DNA of 64,000 nt from Citrus sinensis. Lineage: Eukaryota > Streptophyta > Magnoliopsida > Sapindales > Rutaceae. Positions 10,864 through 54,036 of the stretch are shown in pieces. Position 1 is the first letter of the stretch; each line of letters opens with the position of its first letter. A program made the position numbers and the translations under genes. Below the pieces are notes generated by a model that made no database searches, had not been told where the DNA came from, and saw only the letters and a program-made list of their open reading frames with translations. Location: NCBI RefSeq assembly GCF_022201045.2, contig NC_068561.1:24744501-24808500 (forward strand), written 5' to 3'.

Positions 10864-10920
10864 ATGAAATGTTGCTTTCTCACTACTACCACAACCCAAT
10901 ACTCTTACCAAAGACACTAA
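10864..10920 (+). promoter_or_regulatory. uORF overlapping the CFM2 start codon
   Basis: An ATG five bases upstream of the main start opens an 18-codon frame ([18 protein letters not shown], then TAA) that overlaps the main coding sequence out of frame. Both ATGs lie in CCCATGAAATGTT. Ribosomes taking the first ATG would miss the CFM2 start, so leaky scanning would be needed. Function is inferred only. Confidence 0.45.
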
Positions 10921-13900
10921 CAAATTCTTCATCTCCATTCTTCACTTTCCACAAAACCCTATCCCTGCAAAACCCTGAAAAGCCCTCCATTTTCGTCATC
11001 AGTTGCTCCAAAACACAAAACCCACTAACTCAATCCGAAACCCGCGTTCAAAATGACACCACATCGGCAATTCAACGTATAGCTGACAAGCTCCGGAGTC
11101 TAGGCATTGTTGAACAAACAACAAGCAAAGACGACACCCTGAACCCAGAACCCGAAACTCGAGCAACCGATAACGCGGGGGAGATATTTATCCCCCTTCC
11201 CCATAGGATTCCGAAGTATCGAGTGGGCCACACTATTGATGACAGCTGGAGCACCCCCGAGAACCCAATACCGGTGCCGGGTACAGGGGCTGCTATTGTT
11301 AGGTACAATCAGTTGAATAAAGAGGTGGGAAGACAGAAATGGTTGGCGAAGAATTCGAAGATGAATGAGAAGGAGAAAGAGGTGCCTACATTGGCTGAGT
11401 TGAAATTGTCAGGAAAAGAGTTGAGGAGGCTGAGGACTCTTGGGATTGGATTGAGGAAGAAGCTGAAAATTGGGAAAGCGGGAATCACGGAGGGGATTGT
11501 GAATGGAATACATGAGAGGTGGAGGCACGCCGAGGTCGTGAAGATTGTGTGTGAGGATTTGTGTAGGTTAAATATGAAGAGGACCCATGATTCGTTGGAG
11601 GTATAATCTTTGCAACTTCTTAAAAATAATTTGATAGCCTAATCTGGACTAATTGATTTATAAATATTTGAAGGGTTTTGAATTTGATGAGCTAGAAATA
11701 GTTGGACTATGTAACTAAAGTGGAATGATCTGGAGGGAAAATGTCATAATCTTTTTCTTTTCTTTTCTTTTTTTTGTTAAAATAATGCTGATGTGTTATA
11801 GTAATAGTAGAAGTTGAAATTTTTAGTGAAATTATATTATTTTTTAAATTTTAAAGTTGCTTTAGGATGCTTATGTTTCATATAACCAATGAATTAACCT
11901 AAAAAAATTGAGGATGTTTAATTCCTGCCAAATTTTGATTTTTTTTTTCAATATTACTTTGGCTGATTTGATTTTGCATTAAACTCTCTATCTTTCCCGC
12001 ACACTTGTATATTTCAATATATGTCCTTAATTCCAGTTGAAATACCTGATTGGATGTTGCTTCATATTCTCATGATTTTGCATTAAACTCTGTATCTTTC
12101 CCATGCACTTGTATACCTCAATGTATGCCCTTAATTCCAACTGAAATACCTTATTGGATGTTGTTTCAGATTCTCTTATGGTGCTTTGAACAAATTCTCA
12201 ATTTGCTTTTTGTTAAGTACATTGTGTTAAGTTGCTTGAAATAGAATCCTCTTATATATGTGCACTCGTTGAAATATCATGTTTGGCATGTGGTTGTTCC
12301 AAGTTCCCAAAATATTGCACTCTGATGTTACTTTTATTTCTAACACTTACACAGAGAAAAACTGGAGGTTTGGTTGTTTGGAGATCTGGAAGTAAAATAA
12401 TATTGTACAGAGGAGCCGATTATAAGTATCCATACTTCTTGGCTGATGAAAGTTCAACTGATGGTGCTTCCTCTGATGATTTACCTAATCAACTTGTGGA
12501 TGATGAAGGTCTTGATGAAACAAAGACTCACTCTTCTGGTGCGGATAGTGCAAAACCTTCCGGACAAAGTCCAACCAACAAAAAAGTTCAACAAACCTTG
12601 ATACACAGTGTGGGTTCTCCAGATAAACTAAGATATCAGCTTCCTGGCGAAGCAGAACTTGTTGAAGAAGCTGACCGTTTGTTGGATGGACTGGGGCCTC
12701 GATTTACTGATTGGTGGGGATATGACCCACAGCCTGTTGATGCTGATCTACTGTCTGCCACCGTTCCCGGATACAGGAGACCTTTCCGTCTTCTTCCCTA
12801 TGGTGTGCAGCCGAAATTGACAAATGATGAAATGACCACATTAAGGAGACTTGGCCGACCCTTACCCTGCCACTTTGCATTGGGTGAGTTGAATTATGTT
12901 TCTGCGTTATTTTGTGATTCTTTTAACCTCCATTTCACCTGCTTTCCTCTGCATAACAGGTAGAAATAGAAATCTTCAGGGATTGGCAGCTGCTATTGTT
13001 AAGCTCTGGGAAAAATGTGAGATTGCCAAGATTGCTGTTAAGAGAGGTGCCCAAAACACTAACAGTGAGATGATGGCTCAAGAGTTAAAAGTTAGTGTTG
13101 ATCTGGCAATTTATGTTTTCCTTTCTTACCTTTAACTGTTAAAAATTTCTGGCTGTTAAAATCCTGTCAAGATATCGTGATTTATTGTAGAAATCCACCC
13201 CTTTTATTTTGAACTTTTAATCATAGCCTAGGATGCTAAGATTGTGCTTTTTTTTATCACATGTATGATTAGGCAGGAGGTAATCGTGATGTTAGAATGT
13301 TACGAGGAATTACAATATTCTTGCTTTGCAGTATAAAGATAGTGTTAGATGTTGTAACTTGCACATTCTTCTGCACTATACCTGGGTGGCAATGAAATAT
13401 CTTAGTCTTCAATTTAACTTGTGCAGAGAACAACCATCAAAGCCTATTCATTTCTTTTCTATAGATTAATTTCAGGTCTGGGATAACTCTTGCATCATCA
13501 ATTTTCTACCTTCTTTGGGTTTAATTTTTTATTAGTACATGATGTCTTAAACAAGCACGTTTGTTAGCTCATTGTAGTACTTAACTGTTGATTTCCTTTA
13601 TTAAATTATAATAAAGATATCTTCACAGAAAGTATTAATCACAAATACTTTATTACAGAGGCTGACTGGAGGAACACTGCTTTCCCGGGATAGGGAATTT
13701 ATTGTCTTTTATAGGGGAAAGGATTTCCTACCACCCGCTGCTTCCTGTGCAATAGAAGAACGCAGAAAGCATGAATTCAGCACATCAAATGACTCTAAAG
13801 AAGAGCCTGAACTTGGGAATAGACATGATAATTCTGGTGATAATACTCAAGATGAATTTGGTTGTACCAATGACCAGAAAAGCACTATGCATTCTGAACA

Positions 13901-16656
13901 AAAAGAACGAAGGTCCGCCGAGGTGGCTATTAGAAGGACCAACATCAGGTTGTCTAGGGTATGACTCCAAAATTAGTTGCTACGGGTCACTTGAATAGTT
14001 GTGGCAGTATTAATTGTATTACACATGGCTATATATATGTATTTTAAAACTTTACAGGCGTTAGAAAAGAAAGCTGAGGCTGAGAAACTTTTAGCTGAGC
14101 TGGAGGAGGAGACACCGGAGCAATATGAAGTAGATAAAGAAGGTATAACTGAAGAAGAGAGATATATGCTAAGGAAAGTTGGCTTGAGAATGAAGGCTTT
14201 CCTACTAATGGGTGAGTCATTGCATCTAGCTTGAGATCTTTGAAGCTGAAAGAGCTGGTTCACTAGCTTTCATTCTTTGTAATAAAGGAATAAAACGAAT
14301 TTTGAAGATTTACACACACATATATCATATCAAAGGCATGGCTTCTGTAAAAGTGGGCAATGATGACCAATGTTTCTTTTGTGCTCAGGTAGACGGGGGG
14401 TATTTGATGGAACAGTTGAAAACATGCATCTTCACTGGAAACATAGGGAACTTGTGAAGATAATATCTAAGCAGAGAAAGATTGAAGCTGCTCTTCAAGA
14501 AGCACGGACCTTAGAGGTAGAAAGTGGTGGTATTTTAGTAGCTGTTGAGAGGGTGAATAAGGGTTATGCAATTATTTTGTATCGGGGTAAGAATTATGAA
14601 AGGCCTGCATGTTTGAGGCCTAAGACACTCTTGACTAAAAGAGAAGCAATGAAGCGCTCTTTGGAAGCTCAACGTCGCCAGGTAAATTGAAAAACTAGCA
14701 TGGGCATGCACAAGTTCATACACCCTGTGGGACAATTTGTTTCTTGACCCTAATTCAAAGCAAGAAAACAGATAAAGAGAAAATATCCACAATTCTCATA
14801 TTCTGGGAACTTTTGTTTAGTTTCGCATTTTTTCCCTTTTTTAAGGTGGTTAACTCAACAATATTTACTCAACATATTCACTTTTGCACTTCATGATGCA
14901 GTCTTTGAAACTACATGTTCTGGAACTTACCAGAAACATAGAGAAACTGAAACTTCAGCTGGTGAGCTTTTTATTTTTTTATTTTTTATTGTTTCGAATT
15001 GGATTTGCAAGTTCATGGTTATATTAAACAACCAAATTGAGTTAACTATTGCAGTGCTGCCTTGACCCAGGTTAAAGACAAGGAAGCAAACAGTTTGGAA
15101 ACAATTGATGAATCCATATTGCCATTGGTGGGCAGCATCATATTTTTGATGATTTGGTTCCTTTTCGCGGAAGTAGATCTATGACTTGAGGAATCACAGA
15201 GTGTTTGTAATTATGTAGGTCAAAGAGGAAATTGGTGATATGCAACCAGCCGAATGTATGAGATCAGATACTTCTCATGAAGTGAATGTACAGGTAGGGC
15301 ATATGTGGTTAGACTTCATAAAGTGAGCATGTGCATAATAAATTAGTTCTGATTATTTTGATTTTTTCCATTGAACATGGATGCATATTATAATGAGGAA
15401 ATCTTCAAATATACCTGAAATTGTGTTTGGCATATTTTTTAAGGCTAGAGGAGAATGTGGAGCTGATTTAACTTCCACAGAATCAAATGATACTGGGGAT
15501 GCTACAATAGATGGTCCACCAGCCATTCAACAGGATAAGCAGACTGAATCCTTGACACATAATGGTATTAGCATTAATGAAATTGAATCCAAGTCATCAC
15601 TTAAATCTGTAAGCAAAGAATCCCAGTTAAATATGATTGCAGATTTCTTTGCTGAAGGTGTGGCTAGTGGCACTTCATCTTGCCCTGATAATTCTATGGT
15701 AATATCTGGAACTCCTTCCCTGTTTGTTTCATGTGTATATTCTTGGTTTTCTGATCTCACCTCTCTTTGGACTTCAGCAAGAAGTGATGGAATATAATAC
15801 TATTGTTGATGCGGAGCAGTGTTCATCTGATAATGAGCCAAGAGAGTCCTCAATTGAATCAGCTAAAAGTAGATCATCTGAAAATGAGCCAATAGAGCAA
15901 TCTTTTGAATTAGCTAAAGGTAGATCAGGATTATCAACTCCAATTGGGACAGGAAATGTATGGAATGAGAATAATTCCAGAGCCATACAACTTTCCAACA
16001 GAGACAGGCTTCTCTTGCGAAAACAAGCTCTAAGAATGAAGAAGCGCCCGGTGCTTGCAGTAGGTGATTTCAATTTTCTCTTTCATACTTCCTGTTTACA
16101 CCTCTTGCCTGTATTGTAGCATTGGCTTTTCCTGATTTGTTTCCTGGCAATTGATTGTAGTCCTGGGAACTTATCATTTCTAATATGTCTGTACTATAAC
16201 TTACTAGGGAGGAGCAACATTGTCACTGGAGTTGCAAAAGCAATTAAAGCACACTTTGAGAAGTATCCTCTTGCTATAGTGAATGTCAAAGGCAGAGCCA
16301 AAGGGACATCCGTCCAGGAAGTGGTTGCAAAGCTGGAGGTCTGCATGACTAAATACAACTTTGTTTTCCCTCCATAAAGACCTTAAGAGTAACACGAAAT
16401 TATTTCCCATTGATGATTACTCATGCAGGAAGCGACTGGTGCAGTTCTAGTCTCTCAAGAGCCTAGTAAAGTCATTCTGTACAGGGGCTGGGGTGCAGAA
16501 GATGAATCTAGCCCCAGGGGTAGGCAGAATTCGAGAGCCAAACCATCAATTGTCAGAGATGTTCGTCCTTGGCCAGCTGTGTCCAGGGAGCTACTTGCAG
16601 CAATCAAACTTGAATGCGGGTTGCAAGGACAACAAGAGCAGGAAGCTCCTTCATAG
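10869..16656 (+). CDS. CFM2: CFM2-like chloroplast intron-splicing factor, four CRM domains
   Basis: RNA-binding protein of the CRS1/CFM family. Exons: 10869-11600, 12355-12883, 12960-13090, 13659-13958, 14058-14211, 14389-14681, 14902-14961, 15071-15127, 15219-15293, 15444-15698, 15778-16063, 16208-16338 and 16429-16656. They total 3231 bp in frame, giving 1076 residues. The N-terminus is Ser/Thr/Lys-rich with few acids, like a plastid transit peptide. Four CRM domains are seen: about 172-270 ([33 protein letters not shown]), 398-500 ([32 protein letters not shown]), 593-690 ([31 protein letters not shown]) and 933-1030 ([29 protein letters not shown]). Each contains the basic helix plus a YRG or FYRG strand. 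Four CRM copies and the end [19 protein letters not shown] point to CFM2 rather than CFM3 or CRS1. In Arabidopsis CFM2 helps splice plastid group II introns and the trnL group I intron. Exons 7-9 encode a coiled-coil and acidic linker between CRM3 and CRM4. Confidence 0.92.
11970..12177 (+). repeat. 104-bp tandem duplication inside CFM2 intron 1
   Basis: Two adjacent copies of 104 bp (11970-12073 and 12074-12177), each starting GATTTTGCATTAAACTCT and containing CTTAATTCCA, TTGAAATACCT or the matching CTGAAATACCT, and ATTGGATGTTG. They differ at a small number of sites. The repeat lies within intron 1 and does not alter the coding sequence. Confidence 0.85.
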
Positions 16657-18237
16657 GCAAAATAGGAGCTTGTGCCAAAGGTATTGCTGCAATCATCTAC
16701 ATTGTGGTTACTAGTTATTTTGCTAATTGTTTGATTAGAGTGAAAATCTTTCGATCAATTTTATTGTGCATGAAAGTTTTTTGAATATATATGGTTCAGG
16801 GTCATGACTGATACCAAATTCATTGCATATGGCAACTTTCAGCATGATGGTCATAAGGGTGTGGTGACCATGCCTAACATATTCTTCAAAACACACAACT
16901 ACGGTTCATCGTAGGGGCTTGGTGCAATCTCTGAAACTTGCTCTGCTTGCTCTTCGGTTGTGCTTCTATCAAAGAACAAGCTGGGTCAGGTGACATTAAT
17001 TTATGGATTAGGTGACATTAATTTATGGATTATGTTTTTAAGTACAAGAAAAAGGAAAATCCTGGGGACTGCTTTCCCTCGTCTTTGTTTAACCTAAGCG
17101 CTGGCTAGGTTCCTTTTGTACCAAAAAAAAAAAAAAAAGAAGAAAAAGAAAAAGGAAAATCCTAACATGTACATGTGAGAACATCGACCTATTTTGGGAA
17201 TTTCTGCAATGGCCCATAATCATCAGTAGATCTGATAAGGGTATGTTGAATTTACAGTTAGTTTCAGCCGAAAATCTTCTACCTTTGTAGCATCCAAGGT
17301 CTGTGCATACATACATTCAAAAGACATAATTGAGAGGCTTCAAATACTTCCATCAAGAAACTTGTACTTAAGTTTTTACATGTATAATTTACTCCATCCA
17401 CTTGACATCACTTGGATTAACTTATTGGTTGGTTTGGTTTGTTGGTTGGTTGGACATCTACTCCGAGCTAGGGACAAAGGACAGTTAAATAATGACTCGC
17501 CCTTGGATTTGCCATGATGAATTCTTTGACCGACAACAGCTGCTTTGCTCTAAATAGGCCGGGCCGCCGGGTAAAAGTGGGTGACCAACAATTTCCCCGA
17601 TTATATTTCGTAGTTTCTTGAAGGGGCTTCTCAATCATGTATTATTATTATTCACGGTAGTTCGTACCAGAGAGAATAAAGCTCATTGACCGTGGGACCG
17701 GATTCCCTCGTGTGATTCGGCACTGAATGAGGGAGAAATTTTGCTTGAAATGATGAGATGAGCGGATAGGGATTCTTGCAGTAATTACCATGTGATTCAT
17801 CATAAAAATGCAGCGTGAAGTCATGAATCAGTGTAATATTTTTTTATTCATTTATTCATTTTTTATAGTTAAAAATCTACAAATCCCTCTTACATCAATG
17901 TTTTGCTACTACCTACTTAAATTCTATTAAAATAATCAATTATTTTCCTCTTTTTACCTGCTTTTCCAATTACTTATATCAGGTAAATGATTTTAAGTTA
18001 ACTTACATAATCTATATGTCAAAAGAAAAACAAAAGGTTAACATAATCTATCATAATTAAAACAGAAAAAATAACTCTATGATTAAGCATCCTCGAACTG
18101 AGCTGAATCAAAATTTTCTGCACGCGCTCTCAGATGTAGCAGGTGAAGCAAAGCATGCACGTGCACTCTTTTCAAACATATACAATTACATTATTAAACT
18201 AATTAAAAAAAAAAAAAAGACTCTAGTCTAGGGCTTT
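16657..18237. other. CFM2 3' region and intergenic DNA
   Basis: The first few hundred bases are presumably 3' UTR. A 22-bp unit (AGGTGACATTAATTTATGGAT...) is repeated in tandem near 16988-17031. Beyond about 17400 there is AT-rich sequence and an ACGTGC-containing stretch near 18155, with no gene that I can support. Confidence 0.35.
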
Positions 18238-18870
18238 CATCTTTCAACTTGAACTCTTTCTCTTTCTATTCTCTCTTGATGTCAGAAAAGAATGAAAGAG
18301 ACAGATAAGGGCACAAAAAGCCCTGAAATGAATCATCACACATCACCTAACCTTTCTTTCTTTCTTTCTTTGAAGCACAAACCCTACCAACAGCTAGCAA
18401 TGATGTTGTCTTCATCTCTTTCTCTCACCACCACCGACACCAACACCGCTACCACTACCACTACCACGCCTTCTTCTTCTCCATTGCCATCATTGTTCCC
18501 ACGAACCCCGAAGTCTGGTCCTCATCATTATCATCACTTGAGCAACAAAAAGGAGCAAAAAAGATCAGGAACATTATTCAATTCAACCAACATGTACACA
18601 CGCATATATATGTACCAGACTCAACCCCTTTTACATGTCTGCACGTATGAGCTTTGTTATTGGTTTTGAGTGAAGGGTTTACTAGCTAGCTCAGAAAGAC
18701 TTTCAAAAGTCACTTTTTCATTTGGGGAATCAAGCATCTTGGTCCGATGAAGGTTTAATTCGCTAGATCAAGCAAATCTTAGTTTTTGCCTGTTCAAGTA
18801 TTTTAGATCTACCAGCAAATCTTACTCTTCTTGTTTTAATTACTTTTAGGCTTTAGCTAAGAAGGAAGGA
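18238..18870 (+). ncRNA. Putative lncRNA, miR165/166 target mimic, locus A
   Basis: A pyrimidine-rich leader (TCTTTCTCTTTCTATTCTCTC) is followed by a 125-codon open frame of Thr/Ser/His-rich low-complexity sequence and then the bulged miR166 site at 18724-18747. The open frame is not conserved in the paralogue at 21590-22110, while the miR166 site and GAGTGAAGGG exactly 56 bp upstream of it are. That suggests the RNA rather than a peptide is the product. Paralogous landmarks in order: AAACCCTA, a CTTC/CTCT-rich block, CCATC..TTG(T/C)TCCCAC, GGTTTTGAGTGAAGGG, the site, then TTTAATTCGCTAGATCAAGC. Transcript ends are not determinable here. Confidence 0.55.
18724..18747 (+). other. Bulged miR165/166-complementary site A
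   Basis: Reads GGGGAATCAAG, then CAT, then CTTGGTCCGA. Against miR166 the first block pairs with positions 21-11 with one mismatch (position 14). The last block pairs with positions 10-1, with a single G:U at position 9. CAT is left as a 3-nt bulge opposite the cleavage position. That is the geometry of IPS1-type endogenous target mimics: strong pairing at both ends, no cleavage. Confidence 0.78.
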
Positions 18871-21589
18871 ATCTTGTTATAATAAGATTTAATGTTCTGT
18901 AACTTTTGTTTCTTTATGAAGAGAACTTATGAATGTTCGATAATTTTCTATCGACAACTTTGTGTTGTTTAATTTTGCATTTTCATTTTGAGTGGTTTGT
19001 GTGTGGAGAAATTAATGGATCAAATTAGATTTTCTTGAGAAACATATACAAATATACTTGAAGTTGCTTTGTATACCTTCAATCACATATTTCAGTGCTT
19101 ATTTTCACTGAATATTTTCGGAAAATACATAGCTCTTCCCCATCAAATGCAACTATATATATATATATATATATATATTGTCACTCATTTTTATTTTTTC
19201 TTTATTAGTTTGTCATTAAATGGGTACTCTCGCAAGCTATTGCCTTCTCGAAAGCCATGGATATATATTTGTTGGACGATCAAGAGGTTTGTGATTTCCT
19301 TGCTTGGGTTTCTCTTTCTCGTATAATTAATTTCTTCAATTTTTTTTTTCTCTCCATTCTCGAGCACTTTAGCCTATGGAGTATAGAGTTTATCATATAA
19401 AGATTGAGGCAATGTTTTGTTTGCTAAGTTAATTAATTGTGAGGAATTTTTCACCTTTACAAATTAATGGCCCCTTGTCGCATGAAATTTATAGAGCTCA
19501 GTTTCTATATCAATTGATCGAGAAGCACATAAGCTTTCTTGAATTGATGTTTCTATCGACTGCTCCTGCCGATTACAAATTGATGATAGCTTTCACAGGA
19601 TTGATTATCTCTCAAGGACAGCCTGCTGCTGCATGTAAGCATGAACAATGTATTCCAAGAACGGCCAGTCTAAGCCATAATATATAAGTGGCTTCATTTT
19701 GTAACTTTCTTGTACACTCTTTTCCAAATTAAAGAGAGTTCCAACTTCAACGTTTTCATAATTAAATTTCTATAGCTCTTACGGAACCAATTGAATTCAA
19801 ATACAAATTAAGTTAAGAAGAGCTCAAATGAAGAAAAATGTCCCTGTACATCAATTATTGCTTTTATGTTGAGCAATGAATTTAATGTTGCAAATCCCCC
19901 GCCACGTATATATAATCAACACAAATTTATTGTGTCCTCTAGATATATAGTACAAAATTTTCCACATTTGAAAATCTTGTTTTTCCACTAATGGAGTAGA
20001 AATTTCTTATGATCACATGTGTAAATAAATTTCCTTACGTGCCGTGTTTCGAGTACACATGCTTTGACTCTAAGCAAGCCGCCGTCGGCTGGCCTTGAAA
20101 TTAAAGGCTAGGTTGGGATTTTATTAGTAGGTTCAAAAGTGATTTTTTAAAAAATAAAGAATAATACAGCATTACTCTTAACTAAAAGTTAATTTCAATA
20201 TTTGATAAATTTTTTGAGAAATTATTTTTGTAAAATCACTCTATCATACATCAAATTTTGAAAAGTTTGGAAAAGTAATTTTTTAAAATTTTTTGAAAAT
20301 TAATTTTACAATTATTATAATTTCATATATATTTTTATATATATCATAAAAATTCAAAATTATTTCTTATTCAATTAGGAAATAAAATTAAGAAATTTAA
20401 AGTATTAGTATCATCACTAATAATGATGAAATAGCAAAATAAAATTAATAAAATAATAATATTTATTTAGTTATCAATTATTATATATATATATATATAT
20501 ATAATAAAAAGAATATCATATATATATATTTTTTATGAATGTGTAAATAAATTTATGTCTATTTCAATTTTTTTTATATTTTACAACAATTTAATAGTAA
20601 GATTATTGCTTTTAAAATTTATAATACTTTTGAAAATAATTTTTATTAAATATTTAACTGATTCTCTTTATATTAATTATTTTTACAGCACAACTAACAA
20701 TAATCATCTTAAAAAAAGAAAAAAAAAAGAGAGAGTTAAAACTGACTATAATCTTCAGTGGGTTGAAAATTGCATGACAAGCGAGCTACTTATGGATGTT
20801 CGCAAATCGCAATCGCAATTTGTATGTTTTGCACGCATTTGAGAAAATATGAAAAGTGAGGGACTTTTCAGATGAAAATTCTTATCAAGATGATAAAAAA
20901 AAATTAATTAATTAATAAAAAAAACCCGTCAATGCAATTGCACCAGAGAGAGAGAGAGAGAATATTATCGACAGAGATGGTCCGAGGACCACAATTAAGG
21001 TCTGGTTTTTGTTCAAAAGAGATTTGAAAAAAAAACAGGAATTGATGAATTATTGATTTAGGTTAATTTTGTCGCTTTTCTGAAAGAATGCATGGAAAGG
21101 ATAATCAATCTTTGTCTAAGATCTTGTATGAAACGTTAAGGACCAACTAAGTTCGGCACAACAAGAAACAATTTTGGACTCTTAAAGCTTAAAAGTGATA
21201 AAACATTAATGATATTGGAAATTTGAAATATTCGGATTTGATTTTAACTGACATGCTTAATCGAAGAACAATTAATTGGATATGTGAATCTGTCGGTAGC
21301 TTAACAAGGCGTGAACAGAGAATGACAATCTGAATTGCAACCACTATGTATAACATCATACCGCAAGCTAGTTTGATCCCATTGACTCTTGTTAATGTTG
21401 AAATAATAGCCCTTTTATACCGATATCTCTTATTCAAATAAATTGGGTAAAAAGTAAGAGATAATGTGCACCATTAATTAGTACTATCTTGATTTCAACA
21501 TTCTTTCGAAAGCATAGCTTTATGCCACTTTCATCACATATACACTATTATATTTACTTCCCTTTTTATTAGTGTTGGGTGTAATGAAT
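18871..21589. other. AT-rich DNA between the two mimic loci
   Basis: No gene recognised. There are (AT)n tracts at 19155-19178 and about 20484-20503 and a very AT-rich block from 20120 to 20700. A GA tract lies at about 20946-20962. Short open frames in this interval are low complexity or chance. Confidence 0.35.
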
Positions 21590-22110
21590 GATCCCTCTCC
21601 CTCTCTTTCTCTCCTCTGACACGATGAGAGAGAGAGAGAGAGGAGCACAGAAACCCTAGAATGAATTTTCTATTTTTTCATCATCTCTCTCTCTCGTTTC
21701 TTTCAACTTTCAACGCCAGCAGAATTAAACCCATCATCAACAATCATGTCCTCTTACCATTATTCTCTCCATCATCATCATTGCTCCCACTTCATTCCCA
21801 CACAACTCAAAACGCCATCATTAAGAGAGAGATTATTGGAAAAGCAAATTAGCCCCCGTAATGTCTTTCATGTGTACCGGATGGCTATCTTAATCAATCT
21901 AGCTCTTGGTTTCGAGTGAAGGGTTGTGTTTTCCTTTCAGGTTTCAACACTTTGAAGTCTTTGACTTTTGGGGAATCAAGCGTCTTGGTCCGATCATTTA
22001 ATTTGCTACGTCAAGCAAGTTTAGGTTTCTCCATCTTCTCAACCGGTTTAATTTCTTTGTTCTGTTAACCTATATGAATGTTTAGATCTTGTTACCTTGT
22101 GATATGAGGG
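21590..22110 (+). ncRNA. Putative lncRNA, miR165/166 target mimic, locus B
   Basis: A paralogue of locus A about 3.2 kb away in the same orientation. It opens with CT/GA-rich tracts and AAACCCTAG and has a 63-codon open frame unrelated in sequence to that of locus A. It keeps CATCATTGCTCCCAC, GGTTTCGAGTGAAGGG and, exactly 56 bp beyond GAGTGAAGGG, the bulged miR166 site at 21970-21993, then TTTAATTTGCTACGTCAAGC. Conservation centred on the site with loss of the ORF argues for a non-coding function. A donor/acceptor-like TTTCAGGTTTC just before the site hints at possible splicing. Confidence 0.55.
21970..21993 (+). other. Bulged miR165/166-complementary site B
   Basis: Reads GGGGAATCAAG, then CGT, then CTTGGTCCGA. 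Pairing with miR166 is identical to site A (one mismatch at position 14, one G:U at position 9). Only the middle base of the unpaired 3-nt bulge differs (CGT against CAT). Confidence 0.78.
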
Positions 22111-24440
22111 TGTATAATAATTATTATTTTTTTGTTTCCATTTGGTTTTTGAGTATGAGATTATGATATTATGCTTTCAGGATGAGGGGAAAAAAAAAAA
22201 AAAGGTGATTTTGTAATTTCTGTTAGAAGATCGCTCCACGATCTCTCTCTTGCTACCATAATTTTCTTTTCCTTTCTGTCTACTCAAACTGAGTGTGTTG
22301 AAGTTGTTATGTTAAGCAGATCTACTTTGTTTGCTGAAGGCATGCAGTGGATCTCCAATTAGGGTTTGTGGCTCTTGCTTCCGATTTGACAAATATATGG
22401 TCTCGTAGTCCGTTATAAATCGAAATCCATGATATCATCAGAGATTTATAAAGCATATATATAATATGAAATCTCAACTGTGTTCTAAAACATATTACAT
22501 AGCATATTATTTCTTGCTCATAAAGTTGTTACTTACTTACTTACTGCATAAAAAACAGGCATCACATGAGCAAGGCTTATATGAAATTACTACGATTAAA
22601 TACTCCACATATTTCATCATATACTTCCTATCACATCGCTAGTATTTTAATTGGTTTGTAACTTGTATTCATCTTCTTCTTCTTCTTCCAAGTGTGATAT
22701 AGGTAATTAAACATCAGGTGCATATATACAATAAATTATTAAGAAACAATAATATAACTTAAAACATTCATCCAATATTGAATGAACTAGCACAAGGATT
22801 GGTATGTTGAATATCTTAGTTATGCTTGGCAGGGCTTGAAAATTGCTATCAGAACATGAGATAAATCATGCAAAAACTGGGTTTCATTCATGCACGTGTA
22901 AACATACGGTGACACACTAGCTTAAAATTTAGGGTCTCAGTAGGGCCCTGAACAAATGTATGTGTTCCAATTCCTATGCTTGTGTTTCTTTTTGGAAGGG
23001 ACTACAAATTAATTATGCATTTGTAATTTCATTGTGATCGTTAAAGCTTCATCAATTATACCTCACATTTATGTCAAAATAACATTCTTTTCAGCGCTTC
23101 CAAAATTTTTGAATTCAAGTTCTGTTTTGTGATTTATGAGGATTAATTAAGATCCTAACTTCTCCTCACTAAAAATTCATATGTTGATTGGTAATTAATA
23201 AATTAAAAATAAAAAATAAATTCTATCTATATACTATTACTACATAACATATGACAATAGATCGTTAAAAGTTTATAAGTGTTCAGATTAAAAAAAGAAT
23301 CTTAATTCAATTTATGATAGGTAAGGGGGTATGTATTATTTTAGACACGGGTTATTATGACATTATAAATCATTAAAAATATTGTTCCAACTATATTCTA
23401 TGTGGGAAGTTTTTACACTTCATATTTCAATTTTTGTATACTTCATTGCAAAAATTATTTGCCTCATAATATGTTTCATTTAATAATTTCGAACACATTT
23501 GGAATCTCTAAAAAGATCCATGAAATAAGAGAAAGTTTGTAAAAGTATTTGACACCGATCGATGTGAAACTTTAAATTCATATTTTTAGAAAATGCAGGC
23601 GCCCGTACTAGATAAGGATTCTCAATGTAATGAGATATATCTGTAACTGATTCTGTCAGTTGTTGCACTATAAAATATAATTTAGTTATTTTTATTTTTA
23701 AGTTTTTTTGTTTTCAAATATTGCATGAATACAAATCAATCTTCTTCCTAATTCTTGACGCGAGAACAAGCCGAAAGTTCGAATTGAATAATGATGTATG
23801 TACAATAACTATTACATTAGTACAATATTTATAAGAAATTAAAAAAAAAATGTCTTATAGTAAATTCTTTTATCTTGTAGTGAATTTTTTTCCTTATCTT
23901 ACGATAATGGTATTAATCCTAGTACTAACTCTAGTAAGCAAAATCATTACTGCTTCGAGTTAACCTCTTCTTTTGAGAATAAATGACACATTTTGCTAAA
24001 ATTAAAAAAAGGGGGGGAGGGGGGGGGTGGACTTTAGCTTTACAAGAAAACAGAATTTAATAAAATAAATATAACAAAAAAGGGGATTTTTATAAGGAAA
24101 TCGGAGGGGTGCTAATAGTCCAACTCAACAGATAAAATAACCCAACTCCAAAATGCACACACATTTTGAATAGGATTTTGGGTTCATGAAACCCAGAACA
24201 GGCCCAGCCCAATAAGAAATGAAGAAAGCGGGCGACTGGCTTCTGTAAAATCTACACAGATATTTCCCAATGTGTGGCAGCAGTTATTTACGTGCCCCAT
24301 TAAAAGAAGACAAAATAAAATCATAATATTAAATCAGAAATAAAACACTTTCAATTCACTCACCAATCGTTTATGTAGCAAGACGCCCTATACAAACATC
24401 TTCTTCTTGTTAGAGCCTATAGTCAATCATCCATTCAAAC
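22111..24440. other. Intergenic DNA, no supported gene
   Basis: AT-rich sequence. A G-rich run at 24010-24029 (G7-A-G9 type) could fold into a quadruplex. The segment directly before 24441 is the FTR promoter and leader; I see no clear TATA box. Confidence 0.3.
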
Positions 24441-26701
24441 ATGACTCTTCAATCCTCTTTGTGCGGCTCCGGCGTTTCGACTTTCATCTGCACACCCCGT
24501 CCCATAATTGCCCGTCCTCGCCCGGTGACTCAAATTCGTGCCCAAGGTGAAAACTTTGACTTAAAAGTTTTGATTTTTTATTGGGAATTTGATATTAATG
24601 TTCTTATTCGTATTTTTTGTTATGGAATTTTTAGTGGAGCCATCCGAGAAGTCAGTTGAGATAATGAGGAAATTCTCAGAGCAATATGCTAGAAGATCTG
24701 ACACTTTCTTTTGTGTTGACAAAAGTGTCACTTCTGTTGTTATTAAGGTAGCTTTTTTTTTCCCTCTCTTAATCCTGTTTTTGAAATTTATGCAAGGGGT
24801 TTGTTGTTTTTTGAGATTGTGAATATGGGTTATCTTTTTTGTTCGGAATGATTTTAGTAATAAGAAATTTAGATTATGCATATGGGGATTGTTTCTAGTA
24901 TTTTGCGTTTAGTTAGAGAATTCGGTTTAAGGCCACGTTTGGATTGAAGTAAGGAGGCTTAGAGAGTTTTGGTTTCTTGCAAAGTTCTATAATTTTTTTT
25001 ACTAGTTTTATAATTGAGTTAGGAGGTTTTAACTGCTTGCTGCTTTTAGTTGCATTTGTTTTCCTTATGTCTTGTTATTAACTTTGCGTGTTCTATATCT
25101 GCATCTGAGCAAAATACCTCTAAATATTTGTTAAAGTATGGGGTTTGTAACTTATTGTCCATGAAGTAACTATCTAAATCGAAGAACATTTTGCATTAGC
25201 TGGTTTGGATGCTTTACATTGGTATAAATGTTATATGCTTCCTAGTGATGTATGCTTCTGCATTATTTGTTATGAATCATCTATGCTTTAGCTTAATTGA
25301 TCACCTTGAGTTGTGTACATTAATACATTGGTTTCCATTATATTTCTAAACGGTGAAAAATCTTGATGGAGGTTTTGATTTCTGTTGGACGAGAATGGTA
25401 AGAGACTCATTACAGAATATGATATTACCATATGAGATCATTCTTTGGAATTTAATTTGTTTATCTATATTTATATTTCCAAAACCTGAATTTACCATGA
25501 TTTTTATTCATTGAATTGAATAAAGAGGATTTTATATTTGGTGAAAAAGAATAGAACTGATGTTAGAAAATTTTGAACAGGGATTGGCAGATCATAAAGA
25601 TTCATTGGGTGCACCTCTTTGTCCATGTAGGTTAGTATCTCCTCTGTAATCTTGCTTTTGTCCAAAGATATGCACATTTGTTGGATATCTTTATAAAATC
25701 TTGTTGGTACACAAAAAATTTAAGTTCATATTTAAATCTCATGGTATAGCTTTCAAGCTTGATCCGTTTTATTTTACAGGCATTATGACGACAAAGCTGC
25801 TGAAGCTCAGCAGGGCTTCTGGAATTGTCCATGTGTTCCCATGAGAGAGAGGTATAATATCTTTACAATTGTGAGCGGTGCACTTTTTAGATAATACATT
25901 GTGAATTTATTTGAATGCTTTTGTGTTGCATTTTACTGATTATATTGAAATCTATAATATGGAATTATTTTGTTGATGGTGCAGTAGGACTCACTGTTAT
26001 ATGACTGCTTATTTGAGAATTTTGCAACCAAAGTTTCGAGCATCTTTTCCTCGAATAAAATCTTGTTTTAAGAAAGAATAGGTTTTCTTATTGTCCCAAA
26101 ATTTGCCAATGATTATGAAGTGCAAACAGTTTTGAGATCAATTCTGCTTGCATCACATGTCAAATTAACGGTTACTTGAATTTTTGCATTGGCATATTTG
26201 AACAACCACTTACCGAAATCTTCTGATGTTGAACACAATGTTATAGTAAAATATTGTGCCAATACTAGACATCTTTGTTAAAGAGTCAACTAGTGAAAAT
26301 AGTAGCATGAAGCCAAAATTTCATTCTCGAAGGACTTTTCAAAGATGGTTTAGTGGCCAGGCCAGGTCTATGGGGAAAGATTTCAAGTGTCTGAGGAAAG
26401 AACTTATGTATTCTATATCCACAAATAATCATATTTGCTTGATCTGAAAGCATCTGCTATATGTTTGAATTGGCAGGAAGGAATGCCACTGCATGCTCTT
26501 TCTCACTCCAGAGAACGATTTTGCTGGCCAGGATCAGGTAATGCTATCAACCTATGGGTTATAATTCATATTATCAAATGTGTATACAGCATAAACTCAA
26601 AACCTTAATAAATATGTGTTGTTGCTTTAATGCAACTGCATTTTCTTCCTGTGCAGTCCATCTCCTTGGATGAAATCAAGGAATCAACAGCAAATCTGTG
26701 A
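24441..26701 (+). CDS. FTRC: Ferredoxin:thioredoxin reductase catalytic (beta) subunit, chloroplast
   Basis: Exons: 24441-24546, 24635-24747, 25581-25630, 25780-25851, 26477-26537 and 26657-26701. They total 447 bp in frame, giving 148 residues, the usual size for the precursor. Residues 1-35 are an Arg/Ser/Pro-rich plastid transit peptide (TPRPIIARPRPVTQIRAQ). The mature part begins VEPSEKSVEIMRKFSEQY. The catalytic cysteines are all present: FFCVDKSV, LCPCRHYDD, FWNCPCVPM and ECHCMLFL. These build the 4Fe-4S cluster and the adjacent redox-active disulfide that passes electrons from photosystem I ferredoxin to thioredoxins f and m. It works with a variable subunit that is not in this window. 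The gene is intact. Confidence 0.95.
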
Positions 26702-51406: not shown

Positions 51407-54036
51407 CTAATGATACTGCTGGTAAAGGAGGCTCTTCATGAAGTCGGTGAGTTGTGACTTATAGGAGGTTCCTACAATTTGTTCATAATCTTTCCACCAT
51501 TGCATGAAGCTGCTTCCTCCCAAGAAAATCTCTGGAGATACTGCATACTCCTTGATCTGCTCCATTACATACTCTTCAAACCTAATCAGCTTCTTTCTTG
51601 TTGATTCTTCCTCCTGACCATTCCTAAGCAACTCGCATTGGATTAAAGCCTCTTCAACATGTGCCCAAAAGCAAGAATCCTCCGTTAGGCTGGCGGACAC
51701 ATTGTGTTTCCTCGTGATAACTTGACTGCTCAATGGTTTTCCTGCTTCTTCTAGCCATTTCTCCAACTTTATGTAATGCTGAGATCTTCCATTAGCTTTG
51801 TAGTCCTCACCATTCTCTTTGTAGTAGTCAGCAATGTCAAGAGGTTCAACCATCCTTCGATAATTTGTGCCAGCATATAGCCACCGGGTTCTGAAGGATG
51901 CCTCTTCTTTCTGGGGCATTCTCTCCACTTCAGCAACCATTTCTTTCCAGTAATTGGTCAGGGATTTCTTAAATGTAACAACGTGCATATCCTTTTTTAA
52001 TCCTCTGTTCTTGTAACTGTCATAGTAGCCCTTGTCTTCAGACTTGGAAACCTTCTTGTACCATTCAAGCTTGGCCATATCTTCCTTCCTTTTGTTCAGT
52101 TTCTTGAAGGGATTAAACACCATCTTCCTTTTTAAAACAAGAGCCTTTTCACATTTTTCCAGTTTTGCAATCAGTAGATTGCTGGCACCGCTTTGCTGCC
52201 ACCAAGAAGGCAGCCATAAATTAGACATGTGGAGAACTTCAAAACACATGCCAAACCACAATAAAAGGAAGGTTCCATCACTAACAAAACAGTTTCACAT
52301 GTATTTTTTTCTTTTTCTTTTTCTTTTTTTAAATTTTGTTCACAGGTTTTTCCACTCCCCTCTCTTTTTTCAAAATCTGATTATGATTGGCATGAAAGAA
52401 AAGTAATTTTCATTAGAAACTAAATTCAGAGGTTTGAAACTAAATTGGGCTACCTGTCTTCTGTTAAGTCCAATGGCTTGCAGTTGCAAAACTATCCCCG
52501 CCTGAAGTGGACACTCAATCATTTCACTGAGCTGTGAGATTCCCTTGAAGCGTACAGTAGACATGAGACGCTTCACAACAGCCCCATAATCAATCATGTG
52601 CCATTGTTCATTAGGGGGTTTGTTTCTAGCTATTTCTAAATCCATTGCCACCAATACTTCAGACACTGCTTCAGGGTCCTCAAGAGAAGAGCACCCATAT
52701 TCAGAACATAAGAGAAATATACCAAAAGGCTTGTAAATGCCAGTTTGGGAATCAATTTCCATGGCATTAGGATTGTAGGGTGAAATGAAAAGTCTTGGTA
52801 CCAAGTCTTGGCTTGCAGCAACATGGAGAAAGTCAGAATTCCACATCAAGTTCTGTGATATGGCTTGTTGTAAGCCTTTGTCACCAATAAGGGGTGCACC
52901 AAAAGTAATGCAGAGAGGGCGTTTGGTGCCTGGTCGATTGATGCTTTCTAGCAGCCATAAAGTGAAGAGAGAAGCAACAGATCCTCCCAGACAGTGTCCA
53001 GTAACAATCATCGAAATTGAATTGCCTAGCTGCAGTAAGACAGATTTTCACGAAACTTCATCCAAGGTACTTTTCTGTGCCGCAATATGATCCTTCACTA
53101 CTATCACTAAAATTTTTCTCTTTCTAAAGGTCAGTTTGGGAATAAGATATTGTGGCTTTTAATCTACGACTATTATAGAATGAAATTAACAATTGTCTTG
53201 TATAAGTGAGTGAGTAGTTGGTAAGAATTAGCCGCCAAGTAAAAGCAGGTGTTTATCAAACACTTCAACTTCAAGCAAAACACAACACAAAAAATTCTCT
53301 CTAAGCCTTTTAGTTCGAGTTCAACTGCAGTATCCAAATTCGGTATAAAGATAATAGTATCTTTTGTTAGAACAAGAATGAGCAAAATGCTTGTTCAAAT
53401 ACAGCCTAATGTCAACATTAGCCATTTCCAGTCATTCAATCTAATTTTTTTCCCAGGAATTAAGTTCTATCCCATTTTGGAAAAGTAAAAGAATGGTAAA
53501 AAACTTAAGCGTTCAAGAAAAAGACAGAGAGGTACCCGATCTTTGAAGCTAGAAAGCTGATCAAGGATAGAGTCAAAAAGGGTCACCGCAGCTTTGCTAA
53601 TGGAGAAAGATGAATTAATTTCGGTGCGTAAGAAGTGGAAGAAAGGAAGAGATGATGATGGAACCAACTCTTCCTCTTCAAGAAGCTGTTTTGTGCAGTT
53701 GGGTGAAACGACAAAAGCTACGATGATACAATTGGATTGTGGCTGTTGATAAACTTTCCATCTGATTTCCTCACTCTGGTTCAATTCTGTATAAAGCTCT
53801 GAAATTTTATCCCATGAAAGTTTCAAAAGACCAGAACTCACCACCAAATTTGCTAACTCTATTCCACTGCTGAATCTGCAACCAAGAACAAAATAAACAA
53901 ACAAAAGAAAGATTAAACAAATGATTTTTTTTCCCTCTTCCGAGTAGTCCAGGTTGGGTTTTCGTATCAAGTATTTGCTAAAGTGACAAAACAAGAAGAG
54001 AATGTAAGTTTCTACTTACAGCGAAAATTGGTTCAT
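51407..54036 (-). CDS. SAG101: SAG101, EDS1-family lipase-like immune regulator
   Basis: Four exons: 54020-54036 (17 nt, MNQFS plus two bases), 53536-53875, 52454-53029 and 51407-52195. They total 1722 bp in frame, giving 573 residues. The N-terminal half is an alpha/beta-hydrolase fold. Its elbow reads MIVTGHCLGGSVASLFTLWL, followed by LCITFGAPLIGDKGLQQAI, FLHVAASQDLVPRLFI and YKPFGIFLLCSEYGC. The C-terminal half is the EP domain: KKGYYDSYK-like SEDKGYYDSYKNRG, WLYAGTNYRRMVEPLDIADYY, SQHYIKLEKWLEE, FWAHVEEALIQCELL. In known biology SAG101 forms a heterodimer with EDS1 and, with helper NRG1-type NLRs, drives cell death after TIR-NLR activation. The lipase nucleophile position is Cys132, not Ser, in GHCLG, so classical lipase activity is not expected. 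The tiny first exon is the weakest part of the model. It was chosen because its donor and the next acceptor close the frame. Confidence 0.88.

Follow-up and report, generated by a model that had tools for sequence, protein, structure and literature searches.

Two neighbouring candidate lncRNA decoys of miR166 in Citrus sinensis, one of which recurs in a dispersed repeat

When the 64,000-nt stretch of Citrus sinensis DNA analyzed here (the window) is compared with miR166, two sites on one strand stand out, and the loci that carry them, A and B, are best read as paralogous intergenic lncRNA genes in which conservation is highest at an endogenous target mimic (eTM) of miR166, a sequence-based reading to which we give a probability of roughly 80%. 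miR166 sets the levels of HD-ZIP III transcripts and thereby leaf polarity and vascular pattern. The transcripts of A and B would bind AGO1-miR166 through near-full pairing, a 3-nt bulge opposite positions 10/11 of the miRNA would block slicing, and miR166 would be held or turned over, leaving HD-ZIP III mRNAs spared; transcription of the two loci, AGO1 binding and the effect on HD-ZIP III are what we infer from the sequence. The features concerned, in window coordinates, are these:

10869 to 16656, + strand: upstream neighbour, gene with a CRM (CRS1/YhbY) domain, its exons after 12960 assigned by eye
18177 to 18900, + strand: putative lncRNA of locus A, approximate extent with assumed ends, TATA-like CATATACA at 18177
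18668 to 18677, + strand: GAGTGAAGGG box of locus A, 56 nt ahead of the site; a shared 12-mer, GAGTGAAGGGTT
18724 to 18747, + strand: site A, predicted miR166 target-mimic site GGGGAATCAAGCATCTTGGTCCGA, bulge CAT (pairing, pattern search, RNAduplex)
18757 to 18778, + strand: shared element downstream of site A, TTCGCT...AGCAAA, its stem broken by a single mismatch
21537 to 22130, + strand: putative lncRNA of locus B, approximate extent with assumed ends, TATA-like CATATACA at 21537
21594 to 22059, + strand: segment of locus B that recurs whole or in part in a dispersed repeat, with copies on contigs C2, C3, C4 and C5
21914 to 21923, + strand: GAGTGAAGGG box of locus B, 56 nt ahead of the site
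21970 to 21993, + strand: site B, predicted miR166 target-mimic site GGGGAATCAAGCGTCTTGGTCCGA, bulge CGT (pairing, pattern search, RNAduplex)
22000 to 22021, + strand: shared element downstream of site B, TTTGCT...AGCAAG, predicted to form a small hairpin that includes one G:U
24577 to 24819, + strand: neighbour on the downstream side, containing an exon of ferredoxin-thioredoxin reductase catalytic chain

An initial annotation of this DNA had placed a second mimic site at 21970 to 21993, about 3.2 kb from the first and on the same strand, differing from it by one unpaired base and preceded at the same distance by a common motif. All of this can be read directly from the letters: the sites lie 3246 bp apart and are identical at 23 of 24 positions, the sole change falling within the bulge (CAT versus CGT), and the only two occurrences of GAGTGAAGGG in the window start at 18668 and 21914, in both cases 56 nt ahead of the site (of 100 shuffled windows, 2 contained at least two matches, wherever they lay and whatever their spacing). 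The bulge-only difference is by itself weak evidence, because a single chance change would hit a 3-nt bulge one time in eight. With up to three mismatches allowed, the site pattern matches the window twice, at A and B, against a mean of 0.00 in 100 shuffles, and when both strands of the window are scanned under eTM rules (positions 2-8 Watson-Crick, a 3-nt bulge after miRNA position 9, 10 or 11, and at most three further mismatches) only A and B qualify. Across the genome (299.7 Mb, 11 contigs) the exact site pattern likewise finds these two on the forward strand and none on the reverse, with 0 and 0 for the pattern written backwards. The exact site patterns had no match in viral and prokaryotic collections, which do not include plants as such and therefore have no bearing on conservation in plants; among the matches listed for the exact site strings in print, none concerned target mimicry, judged by title.

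Against miR166 (TCGGACCAGGCTTCATTCCCC), both sites pair at positions 1-8 by Watson-Crick bonds, at position 9 by G:U and at position 10 by G:C; the 3-nt bulge follows between positions 10 and 11, and positions 11-21 are then paired except for a C:C mismatch at position 14. The pairing rules for eTMs (Wu 2013, as quoted in PMC4274897) place a 3-nt bulge opposite miRNA positions 9-12, where A has CAT and B has CGT, and tolerate up to three mismatches and G/U pairs outside it, of which A and B have two each, one mismatch and one G:U. A cleavable miR166 target of the HD-ZIP III type was considered and rejected, as the uninterrupted pairing across 9-12 is absent and the 3-nt bulge sits after position 10. 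A MIR166 precursor in the window was likewise rejected: no Rfam family, RF00075 included, reaches its gathering score there.

Further members of the family were sought with a relaxed mimic pattern, which at up to two mismatches matches the genome eight times on the forward strand and never on the reverse, compared with 0 and 4 for the backwards control, so that at two mismatches the matches are close to what chance gives. The eight matches comprise A, B, two loci that we call C (C3:2743978, one mismatch to the relaxed pattern) and D (C3:3643747, no mismatches, bulge CCT), three repeat-borne copies of B (L026, L027, L028) and L029, a two-mismatch site that is probably a chance match. Locus C is a clear relative that has lost one pairing position; it shares the box, which there reads GAGTGAAAGGG and lies 44 nt upstream of the site, and the downstream element, where TTTGCT...AGCAAA forms a perfect stem. 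Locus D is possibly a relative too, less surely than C, with little in common beyond the site. The C:C mismatch at position 14 is common to all four loci. Perfect pairing at positions 2-8, a further eTM rule, is present in A, B and D and broken at position 8 in C; D satisfies the pairing rules with its bulge set after position 10 (RNAduplex puts it after position 8), and C does not. RNAduplex energies are -29.2 kcal/mol for A and for B, -27.9 for C and -31.9 for D, and -44.1 for a perfect site. When frames from the 10 kb around C and around D were compared with the window as a test for paralogous blocks, no match was found at E 1e-3.

The initial annotation had named a conservation peak at the site as the test of its proposal, and such a peak is found among these same-genome loci: the 24 positions agree at 23 for A-B, 22 for A-C, 23 for B-C and 21 for both A-D and B-D. 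In this comparison, which covers five of the six pairs (C-D left out) and hence three to four loci of one species, the site aligns at z 8.0 to 11.3 against shuffles. Outside the site, A and B are not wholly unrelated. The 60 nt before the site (z 4.8) and the 50 nt after it (z 5.9) still align better than shuffles, and the farther A-B flanks give z 2.9 and 2.0 upstream and 0.6 downstream. Over the five pairs, flanks beyond 50-60 nt stay below z 3, near the shuffled level, in 14 of 15 comparisons; the exception, A-C at 201-370 nt upstream of the site (z 4.6), means that conservation is not confined to the site. The pair A-B presumably arose by tandem duplication, and the nearest flanks are what would be expected if A and B were neutral or decaying duplicates whose sites are alike through slow divergence and not through selection, as is the pair that C has lost in the seed-like part. 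Set against this are the contrast between 23 of 24 identical positions at the site and z 2.0 to 0.6 in the more distant A-B flanks, and the behaviour of the repeat-borne copies described below; we hold slow divergence to be unlikely.

Could the 24-nt stretch be kept because it encodes part of a small peptide? A frame reading LGNQASWSD is present in both A and B, and the one base by which they differ leaves its amino acid unchanged (GCA/GCG); upstream of the site there are also stop-to-stop frames, 129 aa long in A and 84 aa long in B. Yet the LGNQASWSD frame is just 19 codons long in B, C replaces its W with R and D its S with F, and among unspliced frames that run through the site none has an ATG ahead of it in A, B or C and one, of 25 aa, does in D. 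For unspliced frames, the only ones considered, A, B and C are in line with the decay of reading frames that the initial annotation expected of a non-coding mimic. At E up to 1, Pfam has no match for the frames upstream of the site in A and B, and six weak ones, all below the cut-offs, for that in C. A peptide is accordingly a very improbable explanation. Small S/T/H-rich frames were also seen upstream of the sites, at 18400-18669 in A and 21746-21919 in B; they start similarly and both stop at the GAGTGAAGGG box, in different frames, with no Pfam match. GAGTGA as the shared stop of an upstream small frame was rejected as a candidate, being true in B, belonging to another frame in A and not applying in C, where the frame stops about 87 nt before the site.

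Conservation alone cannot tell DNA function from RNA function, and the site might in principle be a DNA element, bound by a transcription factor or acting as an enhancer, that resembles a miR166 partner by chance. Predicted RNA accessibility, which is not raised, would fit such an element: with assumed transcript ends, the mean unpaired probability of the site is 0.27 in A against a transcript mean of 0.49 and 0.37 in B against 0.47, while C lies slightly below and D slightly above its transcript mean. Local folds at the sites differ from shuffles by z -0.4 to -1.2, within about one standard deviation, and the predicted folding does not favour an open site in A or B. A chance resemblance is nevertheless hard to reconcile with the numbers, as base composition predicts about 0.0005 exact matches to the relaxed full-length mimic pattern in this genome and A, B and D match it exactly, C with one mismatch; because A and B were known when the pattern was written, the fair test is provided by C and D. 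Among A to D, moreover, three of the four types of substitution respect miR166 pairing, lying in the bulge or keeping the pair (G:U to G:C at position 9, G:C to G:U at position 10), and one, at position 8 of C, breaks it. A DNA element therefore seems extremely unlikely to us.

The eTM reading of A and B can be weighed further because the genome holds copies of B elsewhere. Locus B DNA matches the genome 12 times: once at B, once at the core of A and, in 10 pieces, at 8 further places; locus A DNA finds, beyond itself, only the cores of B and of three repeat copies. Six of the eight places (L046-L050 and L053) have a common sequence directly upstream of the B-like part, with a left edge common to five of them (the match of L047 starts inside that sequence), and several kb downstream are common to some of the copies. 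At the other two, L051 (C9) and L052 (C1), what matches locus B is a 172-bp piece (93-94% identity), and the context that these two have in common, about 770 bp, differs from that of the six. The site is covered at five of the eight places, and the remaining three have fragments that lack it; of the five copies, three start at 21594-21601 and four end at 22058-22059. Identity to B in these copies is 105/120 at the site and 1676/1892 over the remaining aligned bases (Fisher p 0.66). Four of them have TCCAA at the end, with pairing at position 2 lost, and in the fifth there is one more G:U, at position 3; since the shared TCCAA change means that the copies are not independent, this test of drift is indicative only. 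With that proviso, the site appears to be unprotected in the repeat copies, unlike in A and B, which also speaks against slow divergence, and the lack of extra conservation there makes base composition or a low local mutation rate no easy explanation for what is seen at A and B. Copies of one decoy carried by a repeat thus allow selection on the native site to be judged within a single genome. Taken together, the peak at the site, the lack of an unspliced ATG frame across it in A, B and C and the drift in the repeat copies support the original suggestion that the A/B pattern is what selection on miRNA pairing would produce.

The repeat itself is probably a transposon. A frame of L050 (8040-8489) has no Pfam match at E up to 5, of two frames of L047 one matches a 2OG-Fe(II) oxygenase and the other PetM, weakly, and the left end of L050 has three short weak inverted matches only. 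Long tandem arrays, their period about 155 bp, follow the copies at L048 and L053. When 19500-25000 is compared with the repeat loci, matches fall in 21594-22059 and in AT-rich sequence around 20.3-20.5 kb; neither the left nor the right part of copy L050 matches the window at E 1e-5. Because the flanks of the repeat are absent around B, B looks like the source of the segment in the repeat. A native locus that is itself transposon-derived, as in MIKKI, was rejected, as, AT-rich sequence apart, only the B segment matches these repeat loci, this repeat family alone having been compared.

A more far-reaching proposal would be that a three-part RNA module, consisting of the GAGTGAAGGG box, the mimic and the TTTGCT...AGCAAA hairpin, is kept by selection in a small family, with the tandem pair serving dosage, and that a transposon took up the whole module and spread it; the copy on C5 (L048/L027), whose pairing is that of B with one more G:U at position 3, may then be active as a transposon-borne decoy. 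We think this rather unlikely as a whole; if the module was spread in this way, miR166 buffering could in principle be multiplied.

The eTM rules also ask for more than 200 nt to neighbouring genes. Counted to recognized coding stretches, and not to gene models or UTRs, the nearest neighbours of A and B stop near 16656 on one side and start near 24.4 kb on the other, much farther off than 200 nt. Elsewhere in the window, on the - strand at 51410-53011, lies an EDS1-family gene whose EP and lipase class 3 domains sit in adjacent frames. The other parts of the proposed circuit are present in the genome. The mature miR166 19-mer matches it 11 times with up to one mismatch, 8 of these exactly, and at least 11 loci, all outside the window, score above the Rfam RF00075 cut-off as MIR166 precursors (45 first-look candidates were scored, and the 23 resulting rows comprise the 11 loci, their opposite strands and one weaker place). 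MIR166 loci lie close together in two pairs, at C7:16021049-16021381 and C7:16101015-16101345; in three of these four loci the mature sequence is a variant, TTGGACCAGGCTTCATTCC, whose RNAduplex pairing with the decoys is weaker. The miR166 site in HD-ZIP III genes is interrupted by an intron, and the HD-ZIP III target pattern gave no match in the genome with up to one mismatch; for this reason the MEKHLA domain was used to count these loci, and its 8 matches fall at four places, which we take as HD-ZIP III genes.

Decoys of miR166 have been reported as functional in Arabidopsis, rice and tomato (PMC6162444, PMC8005961, PMC4683531, PMC10226578), and according to one review overexpressed eTM166 RNAs altered development in Arabidopsis and rice (PMC8005961). 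Named examples are ath-eTM166-1, osa-eTM166-2, csi-eTM166, tomato slylnc0195 and lncRNA39896 (PMC8005961, PMC8215657, PMC8861278, PMC4683531, PMC10226578), a central bulge being reported in ath-eTM-166-1 (PMC4683531). By description, and not by sequence, these RNAs and the predicted A and B are alike as lncRNA decoys of miR166; unlike them, A and B lie 3.2 kb apart on one strand and B has been copied into a dispersed repeat. Mimic sites are described as conserved and most of their flanks as not (PMC4274897, PMC4608266), the same pattern of kept site and diverged flank that A and B display. Neighbouring decoys that keep their pairing amid a diverged locus point to a maintained function, for which evidence is often thin at lncRNA mimics. 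The mechanism proposed here resembles that of IPS1/At4 (TPSI1/Mt4), mimics that sequester miR399 and escape cleavage because their complementarity to it is incomplete (PMC10226578); the miRNA differs, miR399 there and miR166 here, and we claim no relation in sequence. Among the matches listed in a literature search that left most subscription literature outside, none was by its title about tandem or transposon-captured mimics beyond reviews of transposon-derived mimics such as MIKKI. MIKKI, a rice mimic of miR171 whose site arose by integration of two retrotransposons (PMC12085086), shares with B the link between transposons and miRNA target mimics; unlike in MIKKI, native B is without repeat flanks, and the repeat appears to have copied an existing mimic, most copies of which have lost the pairing. 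Decoys of miR166 are thus already known, and it is the neighbouring arrangement of A and B, together with the capture of B by a repeat, that is unusual.
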